Both the position numbers and the translations under genes were made by a program. The notes below the pieces were generated by a model that saw nothing but the letters and a program-made list of their open reading frames with translations, ran no database searches and was not told the origin of the DNA. A stretch of DNA of 49,656 nucleotides from Solirubrobacterales bacterium (GTDB lineage: Bacteria > Actinomycetota > Thermoleophilia > Solirubrobacterales > 70-9). This document shows, piece by piece, positions 864-22,030 of this stretch. Location of the stretch: positions 1-49,656 of the forward strand of contig DATMZR010000008.1 in the NCBI GenBank assembly GCA_035573435.1, given 5' to 3'. Numbering within the stretch: the first letter of the stretch is position 1; each line of letters opens with the position of its first letter.

Positions 864-3800
864 TCACCGGGCGCGCCTGCCGAAGCTGTGAGCGGCGGGC
901 GCGACCGCGGCGAGCTCTGCAGTGTGGGCATCGTCTGCCGGGGACTGCGCGCGGGACGGGCGCCTGCCCGTCTCTCGCTCCGCCGACGGCTCGATCTGCC
1001 TCACATCCGCCTGCGGCGCGTCGGGAGTTGAGAGCGGACTCACGGCCGTGGCGACCACGTTGACGACCCCGGCTCGACGCTCGAGCTTTCCGCTCACCCG
1101 TGCGAACGACGCCGTCCTCACCGCCAGGCGATGGTGGGCATAGACGGCTGGCGGGACTACCACGTTGATGGTCCCCAGCTCGTCCTCGAGCAGCATGAAG
1201 ACAACCCCCCGCGCGGTCGCGGGACGCTGGCGGGCGACCACCATCCCGGCGATCTCCACTGCCCTGGCGTTCGAGATCCCGTAGAGGTCGGCGCTCGAGG
1301 AGACCCCCTGCTCGAGGGTCGGCCGCATGAGCGCCATCGGGTGCTCGGCGATCGCAATCCCAGTCGACGTGTAATCGGCAACCAGGCGCTCCCACGAGTC
1401 GAGCCGACGCAGCGAGGGCGCCGCTGGAATGGGGAGGGGGAGGGGGAGTTGAACCGGCGCCGATGCGGCCTCCCCGGTGGAGGCTGCGCCGTTTGCGCCC
1501 GTCACCAGCCGCCGCGCACCAGGCGCAACGCCAACCTGCCACAGGTCCTCGCGCCGACGCAGATCGTGGCCCCCGCCAATCGCCTTACAGGCCCCGGCCC
1601 ACGCGAGCAGCTCGTGCGCCTCGCGCCCGACGCCTGACCGCGAGGCCAGGTCGGCGAGGCTCGCGTAGGAGCCACCGGCCTCCCGCTCGGCGACCAGCGC
1701 GCGGGCATCGTCGTCCCGCAGGCCGGTTATGTAACCCATGCCGATGCGGACCGCCAGAAGGTCAGGGCGCTCTCCGGTACGCGGCGTCTCCACCTTGCAC
1801 TCCACCGCGCTCCGATTGACGTCCGGGGGCAGCACCTCGATCCCGCGACGCTGCGCCTCGTGCACCAGTGCGTCGGGCGGGTAGAAGCCCATCGGCTGCT
1901 CGTTCAGGAGCGAGCAGAGGAACTCGGAGGCGTAGTGGACCCGCAACCAGGTCGACTGGTAGGCGAGCAGGCCAAAGGCGACCGCGTGGGCCTTCGGGAA
2001 CCCGAAGCCCGAGAAACCGTGGATCTGCTCGAAGACGCGCTCCGCCACCTCGGCCGTCGCACCACGCTCCCTCGCCCCGGTGACGAACTGATCGCGATAG
2101 GCGAGGATCGCCTCCTCGGAGCGCTTGCGGCTCATCGCCCGGCGCAGCCCCTCGGCCTCGCCCGCGCTGAACCCGGCAAGCGCCATCGCCACCTGGATCA
2201 CCTGCTCCTGGAAGACGATCGTCCCCAGCGTGTCGCGAAGGATCGGCTCCAGCGAGGGATGGTCGTACGGAACCTCATACGACGGGTCCTTCCGGATCCG
2301 CTCCCGCCGCTCCAGATAGGGATGCACTGCGCCTCCCTGGATGGGCCCCGGGCGCACCAACGCCACCTGGACGGTGAGGTCGTCCAGGCACTCAGGCTGC
2401 GTGCGCGGCAGCATCTGCATCTGCGCCCGGCTCTCGATCTGAAAGACGCCGGTGGTATCCGCTGCCCGGATCGCCCGGTAGGTCTCGGGATCGTCCATGG
2501 GGATCCGGGAGAGGTCGATCTGCTCACTGCGCGCTCGGGCGATCTCCTCCACGCATCGCTCGACCGCCGACAGCATCCCCAGGCCCAGCAGGTCGATCTT
2601 CAAGAAGCCGGCATCTGCGCACGAGTCCTTGTCCCACTGGACGAGCTGACGCCCCTCCATCGCCGCCGGCTGGACGGGGCAGATGTCGACAAGTGGCCTG
2701 GTGGAGATCACCATCCCGCCGGGATGCTGAGAGGGGTGGCGCGGGAGCCCCCACGTGTCGCGAGCCAGCCGGGCGAGGGCGCGCCAGCGCACCGACGCCG
2801 CTCGCTCCGCGCCGATCGCTTCGGCCATGTCCGACTCCACCGAATCGGCGCGGTCGAACAGATCCACCGTCCGAGCCACTCGCTCGAGCTCTCCGGCCGG
2901 CAGCCCGAGCGCCTTGCCGAAGTCGCGAGTCGCCCCGCGCGATCGGTAGCAGGCGAACGCCGCGACCAGCGCCGAGCGCTCCTCGCCGTAGCGCTGATGG
3001 ACGCGGGGGATCAGCCTCTCGCGAATGTCGCGCGGGAAGTCGAGATCGATATCGGGCGCCTCGGTGATCTCCTCGTTCAGGAAGCGCCCCAGGAACAGCC
3101 CGTTGCGCACCGGGTCGACGTGCGAGAGCCCGGTCAAGTAGCAGACGATCGAGCTGACGCTGGAGCCGCGCCCGCGCCCGGGCGGCAACAGCGTCCGCGC
3201 GGAGTCCGGCCCCCGGACCTCGGCTGCCACCTCGCGGGCCAGTTCCAGGATGTCGAAGTGGAGCAGGAAGAACCCGGAGAGCTCCAGCCCGCGGATCACA
3301 TCGAGCTCATCCTCCAGCCGCCGCCGCGCCTCCCGCCGCTCCCGTCTGTCCTCGTACCTGTGATCAAGCCGGGCCCGGCAGATCTCCGCCAGCGCGCGAT
3401 CCGTCCCCGGATCCTCGGCGCCGGGATACCGATAGCCCAAGTCTCGCGTCAGATCGAACTCCAGCCGCTCTGCCAGCCGCTCCGTCTCCGCCACCGCCTC
3501 CGGATGCCCCTCGAACCTGGCCGCCATCTCCTCTCGAGAGGCCAGATACGAAGAGCCGTTCCCTCGCCGCCTCGACTCGGTCTCCTCGAGCGTCCCGCGC
3601 AACCCCACCGCGACCAGGGCGTCCTGAAGCGCCGCCCGGGAGGCATCGTGCATGTGGACGTTTCCCGTCGCCACACAGGGAACGCCGAGCCGCTCCGCAA
3701 GCACGGAGAGCCAGCGATTGCGCGCCAGGTCATGGCGCCAGAACGGCCGCTGCAGTTCCACCCGGAAGCGGTCGCACCCGAACGCCTCGCGCAATCTCCG

Positions 3801-9453: not shown

Positions 9454-10755
9454 ATGGACAAGCTCGTGATACAGGGAGGCGGTCCGCTTTCTGGCGAGAT
9501 CGTCGCTGCCGGGAACAAGAACGCGGCCCTCCCGGAGATCGCCGCCTGTCTGCTCACCGAGGAGGAGATCGTGCTCTCCAACGTGCCGCGGATCAGGGAC
9601 ACCGAGGCCCAGCTTGCCCTGCTCGAGCGCCTCGGCGCGAAAGTCCACTGGAGCGGGGAGAACGAGATCCGCCTCCAGGCTGACGGCGTCACGGACACGT
9701 CGCTGGACGAGAGTCTCGCCACCCGAATCCGCGCCTCGTTCCTGCTTGCCGGGCCGCTCCTGGCGCGCTTCGGCCAGGCCAGGATGCCGCCACCCGGTGG
9801 CGACTTCATCGGTCGGCGGCGCCTGGACCCGCACCTGGACGCCTTTCGCGACATGGGCGCCAGGGTGGATGGCGACCGCTGGATCGAGATCGACGCACCG
9901 GCGAGTGGCCTGAAGCCGTGCGCGCTGTTCATGGACGAGCCCTCGGTGATGGGCACCGAGAACGCGCTGATGGCGGCCGCACTGACGCCGGGGCCGACGA
10001 CGATCGGAAACGCCGCCTGCGAGCCGCACGTCCAGGATCTCGCGCGCCTGCTGGTCAAGATGGGCGCGCAGATCGACGGTGTCGGCTCGAACGTGATGAC
10101 GGTGCACGGGCGCGACAAGCTGGGTGGCGCCGAGCATCGAATCTGCGCCGACCACATCGAGGTGGCCAGTTTCATGGCCCTCGCCGCCGCCACCAAGGGG
10201 GAGTTGCGCATCCGCGACGCCGAGCCCGAGGATCTGGTGGCGATCCGCCGCCAGTTTCGCCGCCTGGGCCTGCAGTCGATGGTCGAGGGCCGCGATGTCT
10301 TGGTGCCGCCCGAGCAGGCGCTGGAGGTGAAGGCTGATCTGGGGGACGCGATTCCGAAGATCGAGGATGGCCCCTGGCCAGCCTTCCCCGCGGACCTCAC
10401 CTCGATCGCGGTCGCGCTCGCAACGCAGGCTCGCGGCACTGTGCTTATCTTCGAGAAGATGTTCGAGAACAGGCTGTTCTTCGTCGACAAGCTCGTCGCG
10501 ATGGGCGCTCGGATTACGCTCTGCGATCCCCACCGGGCGATCGTGAGCGGTCCGAGCCGTCTTCACGGCGAGCGAGTCGATAGCCCGGACATCCGGGCCG
10601 GCATGGCGATGCTCATCGCGGCCCTTGCCGCCGATGGGACCTCCGAGATCGGCAACGTCGCCCAGATCGACCGCGGCTACGAGCGGATTGATCTGCGGTT
10701 GCGCGAACTCGGTGCCCGCATCGAACGTGTTTCTGTGGAACCGATTCCGGCCTGA
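9454..10755 (+). CDS. murA: UDP-N-acetylglucosamine 1-carboxyvinyltransferase (MurA)
   Basis: MurA catalyses the first committed step of peptidoglycan synthesis, adding enolpyruvate from PEP to UDP-GlcNAc in the cytoplasm. The protein is 433 residues with two EPSP-synthase-type domains. The substrate-binding GNKNA motif with Lys22 is present, as are NVPRIRDT and the late RGYERIDLRLRELGA. In the catalytic loop the usual Cys of GGCxIG is Asp117 (PPGGDFIGRRRLDPH), the same change as in mycobacterial MurA, which is not inactivated by fosfomycin. The ATG at 9454 gives the standard N terminus; longer in-frame starts run into the divergent gene. A palindromic repeat pair follows the stop. A second MurA-like gene elsewhere cannot be excluded. 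Confidence 0.93.
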   Translation: MDKLVIQGGGPLSGEIVAAGNKNAALPEIAACLLTEEEIVLSNVPRIRDTEAQLALLERLGAKVHWSGENEIRLQADGVTDTSLDESLATRIRASFLLAGPLLARFGQARMPPPGGDFIGRRRLDPHLDAFRDMGARVDGDRWIEIDAPASGLKPCALFMDEPSVMGTENALMAAALTPGPTTIGNAACEPHVQDLARLLVKMGAQIDGVGSNVMTVHGRDKLGGAEHRICADHIEVASFMALAAATKGELRIRDAEPEDLVAIRRQFRRLGLQSMVEGRDVLVPPEQALEVKADLGDAIPKIEDGPWPAFPADLTSIAVALATQARGTVLIFEKMFENRLFFVDKLVAMGARITLCDPHRAIVSGPSRLHGERVDSPDIRAGMAMLIAALAADGTSEIGNVAQIDRGYERIDLRLRELGARIERVSVEPIPA

Positions 10756-10808
10756 CGTCAATCCGCCGCAGTTGCGAAAGGGCCTGCCGGGTCAGGCCGG
10801 AGCCCTCG

Positions 10809-10846
10809 CCCGCCGGAAACGTAGGCGAAGCCGAGGCTTCCGGCGG
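10809..10846 (+). repeat. Palindromic repeat B, copy 1
   Basis: A 38-bp element starting CCCGCCGGAAACG and ending TTCCGGCGG; its ends pair as CCGCCGGAA/TTCCGGCGG. It is identical at 35 of 38 positions to the element at 21363-21400. It lies between murA and hisZ and may serve as the murA terminator. Confidence 0.8.
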
Positions 10847-10855
10847 AGTTATGTT

Positions 10856-10880
10856 GAAACCGCGGCTTCGTCGTTAGCCC
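10856..10880 (-). repeat. Palindromic repeat A, copy 1
   Basis: Read on the minus strand it contains the core GGGCTAACGACGAAGCC followed by GCGGTTTC. It matches copies at 21304-21327 and 45771-45792. It lies 9 bp after repeat B copy 1 and directly before the hisZ promoter. Confidence 0.75.
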
Positions 10881-10881
10881 A

Positions 10882-10887
10882 TACCCT
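10882..10887 (+). promoter_or_regulatory. Putative -10 (TACCCT) of the his operon, leaderless
   Basis: TACCCT ends 9 nt before the hisZ ATG. There is no Shine-Dalgarno sequence, which suggests a leaderless mRNA for the histidine operon. Confidence 0.5.
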
Positions 10888-10896
10888 CTTACCGCG

Positions 10897-11892
10897 ATGA
10901 CCCACAGGATTCCACCGGGTACTCGAGATGTGCTTCCCGACGAGATGCGGGAGCTGCGGCGCCTCGAGGCGGCGCTGGCCGACGCCTTCGAACGGTTCGG
11001 CTACGGCGAGGTGGCGACGCCGACGATCGAGTACCACGAGGTACTCGCGCGCGGCGACGATCGCGGCGCGCCCGCCGCGTACCGCTTCTTCGACGAGAGC
11101 GGCGAGCTGCTGGCGATGCGCTCCGACATGACGATCCCGATCGCCCGCCTGGCGGCGACGCGGTTCGTCGGCGCCGAGCCTCCGTTCAGGCTCTGCTACA
11201 TCGCGCGCGCCTACCGGGCGATCCGTCCCCAGCGAGGCCAGATGCGCGAGTTCGCTCAGGCCGGCGTGGAGCTGATCGGGGCGGAGGCGCCGGACGGGAC
11301 CGCCGAGGTGGTCGAGGTCCTGAGCGCGGCGCTGGATGCTGCTGGATTGACGAGGGCGGTGATCGGCCTGGGTGACGCTGATCTCTACCGCCAGCTCCTG
11401 GATGAGCTGGGCGTCTCGAACAGCCGCCGCGACCGCATCCTGGAGGTGCTGGCCGAGCACGACCTGGTCGGGCTGGAGGCGGAGGTCGATGAGCTCGCGA
11501 TAGGCGACCGCGAGCGGGAAACGCTGCTGCGGCTCCCGAACCTCCGCGGTGGTCCTGAGGCGCTGGATCGCGCCCGCGAGCTGGGTGGCGGGGCGGTGGA
11601 GCGGGCCACCCAGCGCCTTGCCGCCACCTACGAAGCGCTCGCGGCTCGCGGCGTCGCCGAGCGGGTCAACGTCGACCTGGGCCTGCTCCGGGACCTCGGC
11701 TACTACACGGGCGCCATTCTCGAGGTCTACGATCCCGCGCTCGGGCACGTGCTCGGCGGCGGCGGGCGCTACGACGAGCTGATGGGGCGGTTCGGGCGAC
11801 CGCTCCCGGCTGCGGGCTTCGCCCTCTACCTGGAACGGCTGCACGTGGCGCAGGCGGAGGAGCAGCGGGTCGTGCAGGAGGCGGGCTCGTGA
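10897..11892 (+). CDS. hisZ: ATP phosphoribosyltransferase regulatory subunit HisZ
   Basis: HisZ is a catalytically inactive histidyl-tRNA synthetase paralogue that pairs with short-form HisG to make the first enzyme of histidine biosynthesis and to mediate histidine feedback. The protein is 331 residues, matching the class II core without the C-terminal anticodon-binding domain of HisRS (about 420). Recognisable elements are the N-terminal PPGTRDVLPDE, the RSDMTIPIAR motif-2-like strand, GYYTGAILEVYDP, the GGGGRYDEL loop and the GFALYLERL motif-3 remnant. The next gene is the short HisG, which supports HisZ rather than HisS. Its stop overlaps the hisG start (GTGA). Confidence 0.9.
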   Translation: MTHRIPPGTRDVLPDEMRELRRLEAALADAFERFGYGEVATPTIEYHEVLARGDDRGAPAAYRFFDESGELLAMRSDMTIPIARLAATRFVGAEPPFRLCYIARAYRAIRPQRGQMREFAQAGVELIGAEAPDGTAEVVEVLSAALDAAGLTRAVIGLGDADLYRQLLDELGVSNSRRDRILEVLAEHDLVGLEAEVDELAIGDRERETLLRLPNLRGGPEALDRARELGGGAVERATQRLAATYEALAARGVAERVNVDLGLLRDLGYYTGAILEVYDPALGHVLGGGGRYDELMGRFGRPLPAAGFALYLERLHVAQAEEQRVVQEAGS

Positions 11893-16149: not shown

Positions 16150-16908
16150 GTGGCTTTGAAGCGCGTCATCCCGTGCCTCGACGTGGACGCCGGCAGGGTG
16201 GTCAAGGGGACCAACTTCGTCGGCCTGCGCGACGCGGGCGATCCGGTGGAGCTTGCCGCCCGTTATGACGCCGAGGGGGCCGACGAGCTGGTGTTCCTGG
16301 ACATCACCGCCTCCCACGAGCGGCGGGAGACCATCGTTGAGCTGGCGCGGCGAACCGCCGACAACGTCTTCATCCCATTCGTGATCGGGGGCGGGATCCG
16401 TTCGGCGGCCGATGCCCAGGCGGTGCTGGACGCCGGCGCGGACAAGGTGTCGGTCAATTCCGCCGCGCTGGCGCGGCCCGAGCTGATCGGCGAGCTGGCC
16501 GAAGTGTTCGGCGCGCAATGCGTCGTGATTGCGATCGATGCCAAGCGTCGTGACGGCGGTTGGGACACCTACATCGACGGTGGGAGGACCCTCGTTGAAG
16601 GTCGCGAGGCCGTCGCCTGGGCGCGCGAAGCGACTGAGCGCGGGGCTGGAGAGGTGCTCCTGACGAGCATGGATCGCGACGGGACGACCGAGGGGTACGA
16701 CCTCGAGCTGACTCGCGCGGTCGCCGATGCAGTCGCGGCGCCCGTCATCGCGTCGGGTGGCGCCGGCGAGCTTCGTCACCTGTCGGAGGGGATCGTCGAG
16801 GGACACGCCGACGCGGTGCTGTGCGCCTCGATCTTCCACTACGGCACCCACTCCGTCCGCGAGGCAAAGCAGCACCTCCACGCGGCCGGCATCCCGGTAC
16901 GTCCGTAG
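16150..16908 (+). CDS. hisF: Imidazole glycerol phosphate synthase, cyclase subunit (HisF)
   Basis: HisF uses ammonia from HisH to convert PRFAR to imidazole glycerol phosphate and AICAR. It is a 252-residue (beta-alpha)8 barrel with [15 protein letters not shown] (catalytic Asp in the first strand), [54 protein letters not shown] with the second catalytic Asp, and [13 protein letters not shown]. The GTG at 16150 begins the family N terminus [11 protein letters not shown]. Its TAG stop directly abuts the TAG stop of the convergent propeller gene, giving a TAGCTA junction. hisI and hisE are not found after it. Confidence 0.95.
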
Positions 16909-20576: not shown

Positions 20577-21413
20577 GTGCTCTGGCGAGAACTCGACGGG
20601 ATCGAGTGGCTCGAGGCCGAGCTGCCGGGTGCCCAGGCGGCGTTCAGCACCCGCCTCGGCGGCGTCAGCGAGGGCCCCTTCATGAGCCTGAACCTGGGAC
20701 GGTTGACCGGAGACCTGCCGGACGCCGTGGGTGAGAACCGCCACCGCCTCGCCGCCGCGGTGGGAATCGATCCCGAGCGCGTCTTGATCGGTAGGCAGGT
20801 GCACGGCGCGGCGGTGGTTCGGCGGGATCAACCGCCCGAGCCCGGCGTCTACACCAATCCGGCTCCGGGCTTGCCGGAGGCCGACGGGCAGGCAACGGCC
20901 CTGACCAACGTGGCGCCGCTCGTGTTCGTCGCCGATTGCCTGCCGGTGGCGCTTGCAGGCCCCGGCGGTGTCGCGATGATCCATTGCGGCTGGCGCGGTC
21001 TCGCGGCGGGGATCGTCGAGCGCGGCGTTCACGAGGTGGAGGCGAGAGCCGCTGCGGTCGGTCCCGGGATCGGCCCATGCTGCTACGAGGTGGGCCAAGA
21101 CGTCCTGGCCGCCTTCGAGCGACTGGGACTGGACGTCGCCCGGGGCCGGATGCTCAACCTGCGGCGAGCGGTCCGGCTCCTGCTCGAGCGGGCCGGAGTC
21201 GAATCAGTGCAGGTCGCCGAGGAGTGCACAAGCTGTCAGCCTGCGCTCTTCTTCTCGCACCGCCGCGACGGGGGGCGCACCGGGCGCCAAGCCGGCCTCG
21301 TCTGGGCTAGCGACGAAGTCGCGGTTCGGGCGAGTGAACCTGCCGCCCCGTTGGCGCCCGAACCCGCCGGAAACGGAGGCCAAGCCGAGGCCTCCGGCGG
21401 CTTTATTCCGTGA
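20577..21413 (+). CDS. pgeF: Purine nucleoside / peptidoglycan editing factor family protein (PgeF, YfiH)
   Basis: A laccase-domain (DUF152) protein; relatives act on purine nucleosides or edit peptidoglycan precursors. The conserved parts are AAFSTRLGGVSEGPFMSLNLG, the His in IGRQVHGAAV, the Cys in VFVADCLPVAL, the His in MIHCGWRGL, GPGIGPCCYEVG and FFSHRRDGGRTGRQAGLVW. The family normally ends there. This protein continues for 35 residues (from about 244) that are encoded largely by the two palindromic repeats A and B, so the extension is probably non-functional. The GTG start is 6 bp after the deacetylase stop. It leads the yggS-sepF segment and overlaps yggS by 4 bp. Confidence 0.9.
   Translation: MLWRELDGIEWLEAELPGAQAAFSTRLGGVSEGPFMSLNLGRLTGDLPDAVGENRHRLAAAVGIDPERVLIGRQVHGAAVVRRDQPPEPGVYTNPAPGLPEADGQATALTNVAPLVFVADCLPVALAGPGGVAMIHCGWRGLAAGIVERGVHEVEARAAAVGPGIGPCCYEVGQDVLAAFERLGLDVARGRMLNLRRAVRLLLERAGVESVQVAEECTSCQPALFFSHRRDGGRTGRQAGLVWASDEVAVRASEPAAPLAPEPAGNGGQAEASGGFIP
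21304..21327 (+). repeat. Palindromic repeat A, copy 2 (inside pgeF)
   Basis: GGGCTAGCGACGAAGTC followed by GCGGTTC; the core GCGAC-GAA-GTCGC can form a hairpin. It is translated in frame within the pgeF C-terminal extension. Confidence 0.75.
21363..21400 (+). repeat. Palindromic repeat B, copy 2 (inside pgeF)
   Basis: This copy is identical at 35 of 38 positions to the element at 10809-10846. It forms CGGAGGCC/GGCCTCCG with a 7-nt loop, a stronger hairpin than copy 1. It encodes most of the last residues of pgeF and ends 9 bp before the yggS start. Confidence 0.8.
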
Positions 21414-22030
21414 TGCCCCTGGACGCACACACAGTACGTGCCAACCTGGAGCGGGTCCGCGAGCGCGCCGGCCCGGGGGTCGAGATCCTCGCGGCTACGA
21501 AGTACGTGCCGGCAGAGGAGATGGGGGCGCTGGCGGAGGCGGGAGTAACACTCGTCGGTGAGAACCGGCTTCAGGACCTGGAGGCCAAGCGCGAGCGCTG
21601 GGGCGACGCGTTCACGTGGGACTTCATCGGGAACGTTCAGAGCCGCAAGGTCAAGCGGATCCTTCCTCTCGTCAGGTTGATCCACTCCGTGGCCAGCGAC
21701 TCCGTCCTTGCCCAGCTCGAGCGTCACGCCCAGCCGGGGATCGAGGTTCTCGTGGAGGTGAACATGGCCGGCGAAGCGAGCAAGGGGGGCGTCAGGCCGG
21801 CGGAGCTTGGCGACTTCATCGACCGCTGTCCCGTCCCGGTCGTCGGTTTGATGACCATGCCGCCGGAGAGCACGGAGCCGGAGGCCTCGCGACCGGCCTT
21901 CGCACGCCTTGCCGAGCTCGCCGGGCAGCACGGCCTGGAGAGGCTCTCGATGGGCACCAGCCAGGACTGGGAGGTGGCCGTCGAGGAAGGGGCGACGATC
22001 CTGCGGCTGGGCACGGTCCTCTACCGGTAG
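21410..22030 (+). CDS. yggS: YggS family pyridoxal phosphate homeostasis protein
   Basis: A 206-residue, PLP-binding, alanine-racemase N-terminal-fold protein that buffers pyridoxal phosphate; no enzymatic activity is known in the family. The PLP lysine is in ILAATKYVPAEEM; GENRLQDLEAKRE, WDFIGNVQSRKVKRIL, VLVEVNMAGEASKGG, GLMTMPP and LSMGTSQDWEVAVEEGATILRLGTVLY are all present. The start is GTG 21410 or the adjoining ATG 21413 (GTGATG), overlapping the pgeF stop. Its position before sepF is standard in actinobacteria. Confidence 0.93.
   Translation: MMPLDAHTVRANLERVRERAGPGVEILAATKYVPAEEMGALAEAGVTLVGENRLQDLEAKRERWGDAFTWDFIGNVQSRKVKRILPLVRLIHSVASDSVLAQLERHAQPGIEVLVEVNMAGEASKGGVRPAELGDFIDRCPVPVVGLMTMPPESTEPEASRPAFARLAELAGQHGLERLSMGTSQDWEVAVEEGATILRLGTVLYR

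Follow-up and report, generated by a model that had tools for sequence, protein, structure and literature searches.

The question raised by the peptidoglycan editing factor (PgeF) encoded at this locus of an uncultured bacterium is why the protein continues for 35 residues beyond its laccase domain. The locus lies in a 49,656-nt stretch of DNA (the window) from a Solirubrobacterales bacterium (assembly GCA_035573435.1, contig DATMZR010000008.1, positions 1-49,656, forward strand), whose genome comprises 2.58 Mb in 43 contigs and is 97% complete. pgeF (20577-21413, forward strand) is a 278 amino acid (aa) open reading frame (ORF) with a GTG start and a TGA stop at 21411-21413. The Pfam domain Cu-oxidase_4 covers residues 24-243 (8e-64) and reaches the last position of its profile, and therefore the last 35 residues (ASDEVAVRASEPAAPLAPEPAGNGGQAEASGGFIP) lie outside the domain, as the initial annotation had proposed. 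PgeF also matches the NCBIfam PgeF family TIGR00726 (4.3e-38), under the family cut-off. The tail is rich in Ala, Pro, Gly and Glu. An AlphaFold model from a 17-row alignment has a mean predicted local distance difference test score (pLDDT) of 87.2, with most domain blocks above 90 and the blocks spanning residues 251-278 at 51-57, which suggests that the tail is disordered; it may be a tolerated appendage without a job of its own. Downstream, the predicted ATG start of yggS (21413-21415; gene 21413-22030, forward strand) shares one base with the pgeF stop (TGATG), and the 9-bp gap first described between the two genes does not exist.

The tail very probably arose when a palindromic repeat, of a dispersed and non-autonomous kind, was inserted at the end of pgeF and came to be translated. 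A composite palindromic repeat of 105 nt (21304-21408, forward strand; 93.7 bits, E 1.1e-20 with our covariance model R1) is in frame and makes up most of the last 35 residues. The initial annotation had seen here the second copies of two repeats, A and B, in frame; both are there, as two modules of one element instead of separate palindromes. It had also taken the tail DNA to be repeated, and this is borne out in the organism's own genome, where BLAST with the 111 bp of 21303-21413 gives 43 matches (E≤1), many near full length and most at 70-90% identity, and 55 places score at E≤0.01 with the covariance model. The genome contains about 50 copies of the element.

The covariance model was built from 23 aligned copies, with a secondary structure that we wrote from the sequences, and the two-module architecture is common to all 23. 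Module A combines a GCGAC-GAA-GTCGC hairpin (family helix 2, at 21310-21322 on the forward strand in pgeF, paired in 23/23 aligned copies), a second hairpin, CCTG..CAGG, and an outer stem, GGGC/GCCC, which, considered as a terminal inverted repeat of the kind found in miniature inverted-repeat transposable elements (MITEs), is weak (84.8% paired) and encloses module A only. Module B is a long hairpin, read from the sequence at 21365-21400 (forward strand) with arms CCGCCGG / CCGGCGG and inner arms GGAGGCC / GGCCTCC. Across the family 91.5% of cells are paired and 8 of 23 pairs are changed on both sides, a figure reached by none of 500 shuffles; sliding the partners abolishes the signal. Helices 4 and 5, in module B, hold six of these eight pairs. 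The RNA fold of the single pgeF copy is unexceptional (z -1.3), and so the support for a paired structure comes from compensatory changes at the level of the family. Rfam gave no match at the window element (gathering thresholds), nor across six element-bearing loci (E≤1).

A second copy in the window (10749-10854, forward strand, 85.2 bits) is intergenic, with a degraded module A, and codon scoring marks 10723-10926 as non-coding. It contains the annotated first copy of repeat B (10799-10852, 83% identical), which stands; the first copy of repeat A is probably an inverted one at 10862-10874 (2 mismatches), held by a weak match on the reverse strand (10802-10880, 25.2 bits) that overlaps the second copy. 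Beyond this genome, under stricter filters, the element is matched at E≤0.001 in 14 of the 50 genomes surveyed in the family. At this threshold there are 49 matches in the window genome, 59 in G003 (which has the pgeF locus of bacterium nzgw112), 21 in G027, 13 in G049 (which has that of Solirubrobacterales bin.54), 12 in G048, 10 in G024 and 7 in G026, and one or two in each of seven further genomes; all 18 genomes assigned to genus g2 were without a match.

Comparison with relatives shows what the end of pgeF looks like where the element is present and where it is not. Judged by PgeF, the closest relatives with a name are four metagenome-assembled genomes (MAGs): Actinobacteria AC_56 and AC_57, bacterium nzgw112 and Solirubrobacterales bin.54. 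AC_56 (its pgeF locus is that of G002), the closest, has a PgeF 77% identical to that of the window; AC_56 and nzgw112 (the congener, below) belong to the genus of the window organism, and bin.54 to another genus of the same family. pgeF was found in 46 of the 50 family genomes and 30 loci were taken, of which 29 had readable C termini (26 + 3) and one was cut by a contig edge. The initial annotation had proposed to see whether the length of the extension follows the presence of the repeat, and it does: 35 residues follow the conserved domain end in the window genome, which alone among the 30 loci has the full element there (93.7 bits), and at most 17 in the 28 other readable genomes. A relative that keeps the extension where the repeat is absent, which would have spoken against an insertion, was not found among the 29. 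PgeF of nzgw112 ends in ...GLAWRD* and that of bin.54 in ...GLAWIDSVA*, tails of 2 and 5 residues, and no convincing repeat DNA was found at either pgeF end by BLAST with the tail or by the model. Both have a copy downstream of pgeF at the same locus, at 3501-3607 of locus L039 in nzgw112 (79.4 bits) and at 3487-3593 of locus L166 in bin.54 (60.3 bits).

PgeF of AC_56 ends in ...GLVWLAQPQPAASESGMDAK*, a 16-aa tail. Here, 56 nt are 87.5% identical to the rpsC copy of the window genome (E 1.2e-15), and 58 nt are 79% identical to the first of the copies in its E2 acyltransferase gene. As a control, the best of 98 other pieces of the AC_56 locus reached 68.9 bits vs 70.7 for the tail; only two neighbouring pieces exceeded 35 bits, mainly matching the flank of a congener copy, and we read these as orthologous gene DNA. 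AC_56 therefore seems, from sequence comparison, to have at this place an element that is shortened and whose B module is of another type (an rpsC/E2-type variant, the window copy being of GGAAACG type), and the insertion is probably older than the split between the window species and AC_56. The proposal that an insertion at the natural stop extended PgeF is thus supported by the relatives, with the change that the event probably predates the species. That the tail is instead an ordinary functional extension of PgeF, its likeness to the repeat being incidental or the repeats being derived from it, is very hard to credit. Its Ala/Pro/Gly/Glu-rich composition is like that of many linkers and AC_56 is tailed too (16 aa), but the DNA itself is repeated about 50 times, mostly between genes, the AC_56 tail is element-like DNA of another variant, and nzgw112 and bin.54, without element DNA at this place, have 2 and 5 residues.

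If the tail is a translated repeat, the ancestor of the window species and AC_56 most likely gained a copy at the end of pgeF, with loss of the last few native codons and the stop. The frame would then have run through the stop-free 105-nt element to a new stop overlapping the yggS start. The element would have spread as DNA by copying, through some mobiliser. The insert could have been tolerated because its peptide is Ala/Pro/Gly/Glu-rich and disordered, and read-through may have been favoured as it keeps translation of yggS coupled to that of pgeF, where otherwise a hairpin of about 100 nt would stand untranslated between the two genes. The TGATG at the junction has the geometry of termination-reinitiation if the predicted yggS start codon is correct (the yggS product matches NCBIfam YggS family TIGR00044 at 6.2e-26 and 91.4 bits, under the cut-off of 106). 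By eye, the yggS start of nzgw112 could lie within the end of pgeF, and so an overlap of stop and start is plausible both with and without the element.

The same junction could also be read as carrying a conserved regulatory RNA, which would act in the pgeF-yggS mRNA as a terminator or a processing hairpin and be translated by chance. Such an RNA would fit the covariation seen across the family, the position of most copies between genes and close to gene ends, and the finding that, among 19 upstream ORFs that run into the element in its sense direction, 5 terminate at its GGGCTAG. Nevertheless, we consider it improbable, as the junction is element-free in nzgw112 and bin.54, Rfam has no match, a minority of copies lie inside ORFs, and a terminator would be counterproductive ahead of a yggS that is coupled to pgeF. 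The element may have some secondary influence on the mRNA.

The larger finding is an element family that appears to be read in frame within core proteins. Copies were placed by codon-usage scoring and open-frame scans, and hosts were named by Pfam and NCBIfam profiles. In the window genome the further hosts are an E2 acyltransferase-E1 fusion (two copies), a UvrD/PD-(D/E)XK helicase-nuclease and the ribosomal proteins L10 and S3 (both C-terminal) and S17 (N-terminal). In the congener, sense copies lie in CofGH FO synthase, HisF, Lhr helicase (two copies), NuoG, UvrD/PD-(D/E)XK, Der and RuvX (C-terminal), and copies on the opposite strand in NuoJ and ScpA (both C-terminal) and an MMPL protein. 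A further congener host is a small, putatively CcmD-like protein (locus L139), which had no match in the profile searches. Of 19 in-frame copies, 16 are sense and 3 antisense.

HisF, Der and PgeF are the cases in which sequence comparison points to insertion of the element, in frame, into a conserved gene whose counterpart in relatives has an empty site. HisF is the cleanest empty-site test. NCBIfam hisF scores above its cut-off for both the window and the congener protein, a 35-aa insert is found in the congener alone among 30 loci read, and window hisF (16150-16902, forward strand) represents the empty site, with matches to congener HisF stopping at query position 134 and restarting at 171. 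Der could be read in 29 of 30 loci; again only the congener has the full insert, and a remnant of 8 residues, RASDEVAV, stands at that place in the window genome. Genome G048, from another genus, has module-B-like DNA in both the HisF loop (43 nt, 90.7%, E 7e-13) and the Der linker (76 nt, 82.9%, E 6e-14), and so the same loops were probably entered separately there. The corresponding controls were uninformative, with maxima of 56.3 and 110 bits vs 60.8 and 65.3 for the inserts, presumably due to orthologous flanks or overlap with the loop, and the G048 inserts therefore rest on their E-values and on where within the element the match falls. In UvrD/PD-(D/E)XK, element DNA lies by eye at the same site in both species (L010, 6541-6681, in the window genome; L137, 2367-2471, in the congener).

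In some other genera the HisF loop contains inserts that are unrelated or of a different build. Among them is a SSPTCAAPPGWFG-like peptide that recurs mainly in genus g9, and the loop of genome G047 has palindromic-looking DNA with a weak element match (E 1e-4). A second, degraded repeat-like peptide (GASDEAAGRAADPA) precedes the element in the congener UvrD/PD-(D/E)XK. Proteins S3, S17 and L10 of the window genome (L011, C12:83500-89000; L018, C12:104500-109000) have long Ala/Pro/Glu-rich tails with element sequence, and the S3 tail also holds short tandem repeats (GTADAGSAEAGTADAGSA).

Copies in genes differ from those between genes in their length. We tabulated 97 copies within the fetched stretches (49 from the window genome and 48 from the congener, the four weakest of 101 model matches being omitted), and coding labels, given to 19 copies, were set by hand. 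Among copies of 100-112 nt, and with three ambiguous ones excluded (the congener N-terminal NuoE and peptidase M16 cases and a C terminus like that of glutathione S-transferase in the window genome), lengths divisible by three are found in 11 of 13 coding vs 11 of 53 intergenic copies (Fisher p 3.4e-5). The congener alone gives 9/10 vs 8/26 (p 0.0023). The 105-nt form is stop-free in the frame used by PgeF, and six of the seven intergenic 105-nt copies of the congener are open in the same frame.

This enrichment might indicate a dedicated subfamily adapted to coding sequence and spreading into genes, as a difference in sequence between coding and intergenic copies of the window genome had led us to expect. 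We rejected this idea, and regard it as quite improbable, on account of the mixed tree of copies and the intergenic 105-nt copies being mostly open. In that tree (69 rows, 107 columns, poorly resolved), 19 of the 27 intergenic copies of the window genome cluster, together with one ambiguous copy of its own and one congener copy, and its three coding copies fall in the mixed half. Given the poor resolution, the coding copies may tentatively be seen as older copies preserved in genes. The enrichment in lengths divisible by three can be explained by the survival of insertions that keep the frame, and does not require a coding-specific subfamily.

Several points weigh against the tail being a translated insertion, or against parts of this explanation. 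The AlphaFold model has a short helix at residues 246-252, within the tail. Translation through the element is something that we infer from the open frame and from host genes resuming after the element. The assemblies used are drafts. In the window genome alone, the excess of lengths divisible by three is weak (2/3 vs 3/27, p 0.064), and six in-frame coding copies of other lengths stand outside the length test. The coding copies do not form one group in the tree, the 10 congener coding rows needing 8 changes, with values as low in 38 of 500 shuffles. The insertions in E2 and L10 are weak evidence singly, as these linkers and tails are variable anyway. Searches for the transposase domain Y1_Tnp were positive in 3 of the 50 family genomes, and found none in the congener with its 59 element matches (assembly 84% complete). 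The pgeF end of AC_56 scores just 12.3 bits (E 0.41) with the repeat model, as most of module A is gone, and its B module differs from that of the window copy.

The last difference is what would be expected if AC_56 and the window species had received different elements independently at one permissive site, and the re-use of the same loops in HisF and Der by the congener and G048 provides a precedent. We consider this possible, though unlikely: a single shared insertion followed by module exchange is simpler, and both tails start directly after the conserved W. A single older insertion of the repeat remains our preferred explanation for the PgeF tail.

Comparable elements are known from other bacteria. 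Rickettsia palindromic elements (RPE) and their Wolbachia counterparts are 105-146 bp long, with open frames, and occur between genes and in frame in conserved genes, in 19 reading frames (PMC2229807, PMC10969869). Compared by description, the present element is likewise palindromic, dispersed and found in both settings, but belongs to high-GC actinobacteria and has a composite A+B architecture. The same event as in PgeF is described for the Erwinia carotovora amidase ECA3499, where a 127-bp copy of the enterobacterial repetitive intergenic consensus (ERIC/RU-1) at the 3' end apparently removed the stop and extended the protein from 461 to 496 residues (PMC2759123); in both, the normal stop appears to be lost and about 35 residues are added beyond the domain. 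In contrast to this enterobacterial case, the new stop of PgeF overlaps the next start, and the present element also inserts internally. Repetitive extragenic palindromic (REP) sequences of the GTAG/CGTC type lie inside ORFs, including many repair genes, with Xanthomonas recB entered at about one site in two species and the GTAG ends supplying TAG stops (PMC3733652). This resembles the UvrD/PD-(D/E)XK gene, hit by eye at the same site in two species, and the stops supplied by GGGCTAG, although those REPs are units of 20-40 bp, compared with about 105 nt here, and no GTAG/CGTC tag is established for the present element. Mycobacterial interspersed repetitive units (MIRUs) insert at start codons with a spacing of -4 nt and couple the next gene through their open frame (PMC12548453). 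The present element is also an actinobacterial interspersed repeat with an open frame that would preserve coupling to the next gene, but it leaves a 1-nt overlap and also inserts deep in proteins. Finally, the neisserial Correia/NEMIS elements have a 107-bp form with open frames found in genes and a 155-bp form that is almost only intergenic (PMC2229807); here too the copies in genes favour a length whose frames are open, but the two lengths are 105 and about 107 nt, and the 105-nt form is intergenic as well.

In the literature, as judged by title or the start of the abstract and with most subscription papers outside the search, no such insertions were reported for Solirubrobacterales or Thermoleophilia. 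The kind of element appears to be already known (RPE, intragenic REP/ERIC), and the element family and the lineage appear to be new. Discussion of protein-coding palindromes has centred on Rickettsia and Wolbachia, along with enterobacterial and other REP/ERIC cases. The window lineage and its relatives, known from MAGs, are presumably free-living, and the habitat of the window organism is probably soil, to judge from these relatives. If in-frame palindromes do occur in the ribosomal proteins and central enzymes of such actinobacteria, a reduced intracellular genome is no precondition for the process.

A wider proposal, which we put forward tentatively as quite possible if not yet probable, is that in soil Solirubrobacterales-like actinobacteria the 105-nt/35-codon form, stop-free in several frames, colonises core and ribosomal proteins as interchangeable disordered peptides. 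In different species and genera, the element would have entered the loops of HisF, Der and UvrD/PD-(D/E)XK and the end of PgeF repeatedly. Where it lies at an operon junction, its frame would replace the lost stop and keep coupling. If this is true, these sites represent a running natural experiment in insertion tolerance, in which repeated use of a loop provides natural replicates on which protein sites tolerate a 35-residue insert. The pgeF-yggS junction makes the coupling account of read-through directly testable.

Empty-site comparisons were also tried for E2 and L10, and dropped as the linkers and tails are too variable; of the ten E2 loci used, linker 1 was read in 3 and linker 2 in 2. 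Mobilisation by a REP-associated tyrosine transposase (RAYT) was considered and rejected. The sole Y1 match of the window genome (L093, C9:4844-5089) lies on contig C9, where the model finds no copy at E≤0.01, and the congener has no Y1 match. The surroundings of this match are by eye compositionally unlike the window, and C9 is possibly a misbinned contig.

Some copies have a more complex structure. In several (143-nt forms; L026, L029, L030, L130, L131, L019, L010 and L011), a nested hairpin with a GGATGACCGGTCGCCT core lies between the modules, as though one palindrome had inserted into another. In the congener, several copies stand in tandem at a spacing of about 93 nt (L155, 1940-2324). 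At the start of the window, positions 1-460 contain the end (3') of a 23S rRNA gene and, after it, 5S rRNA.
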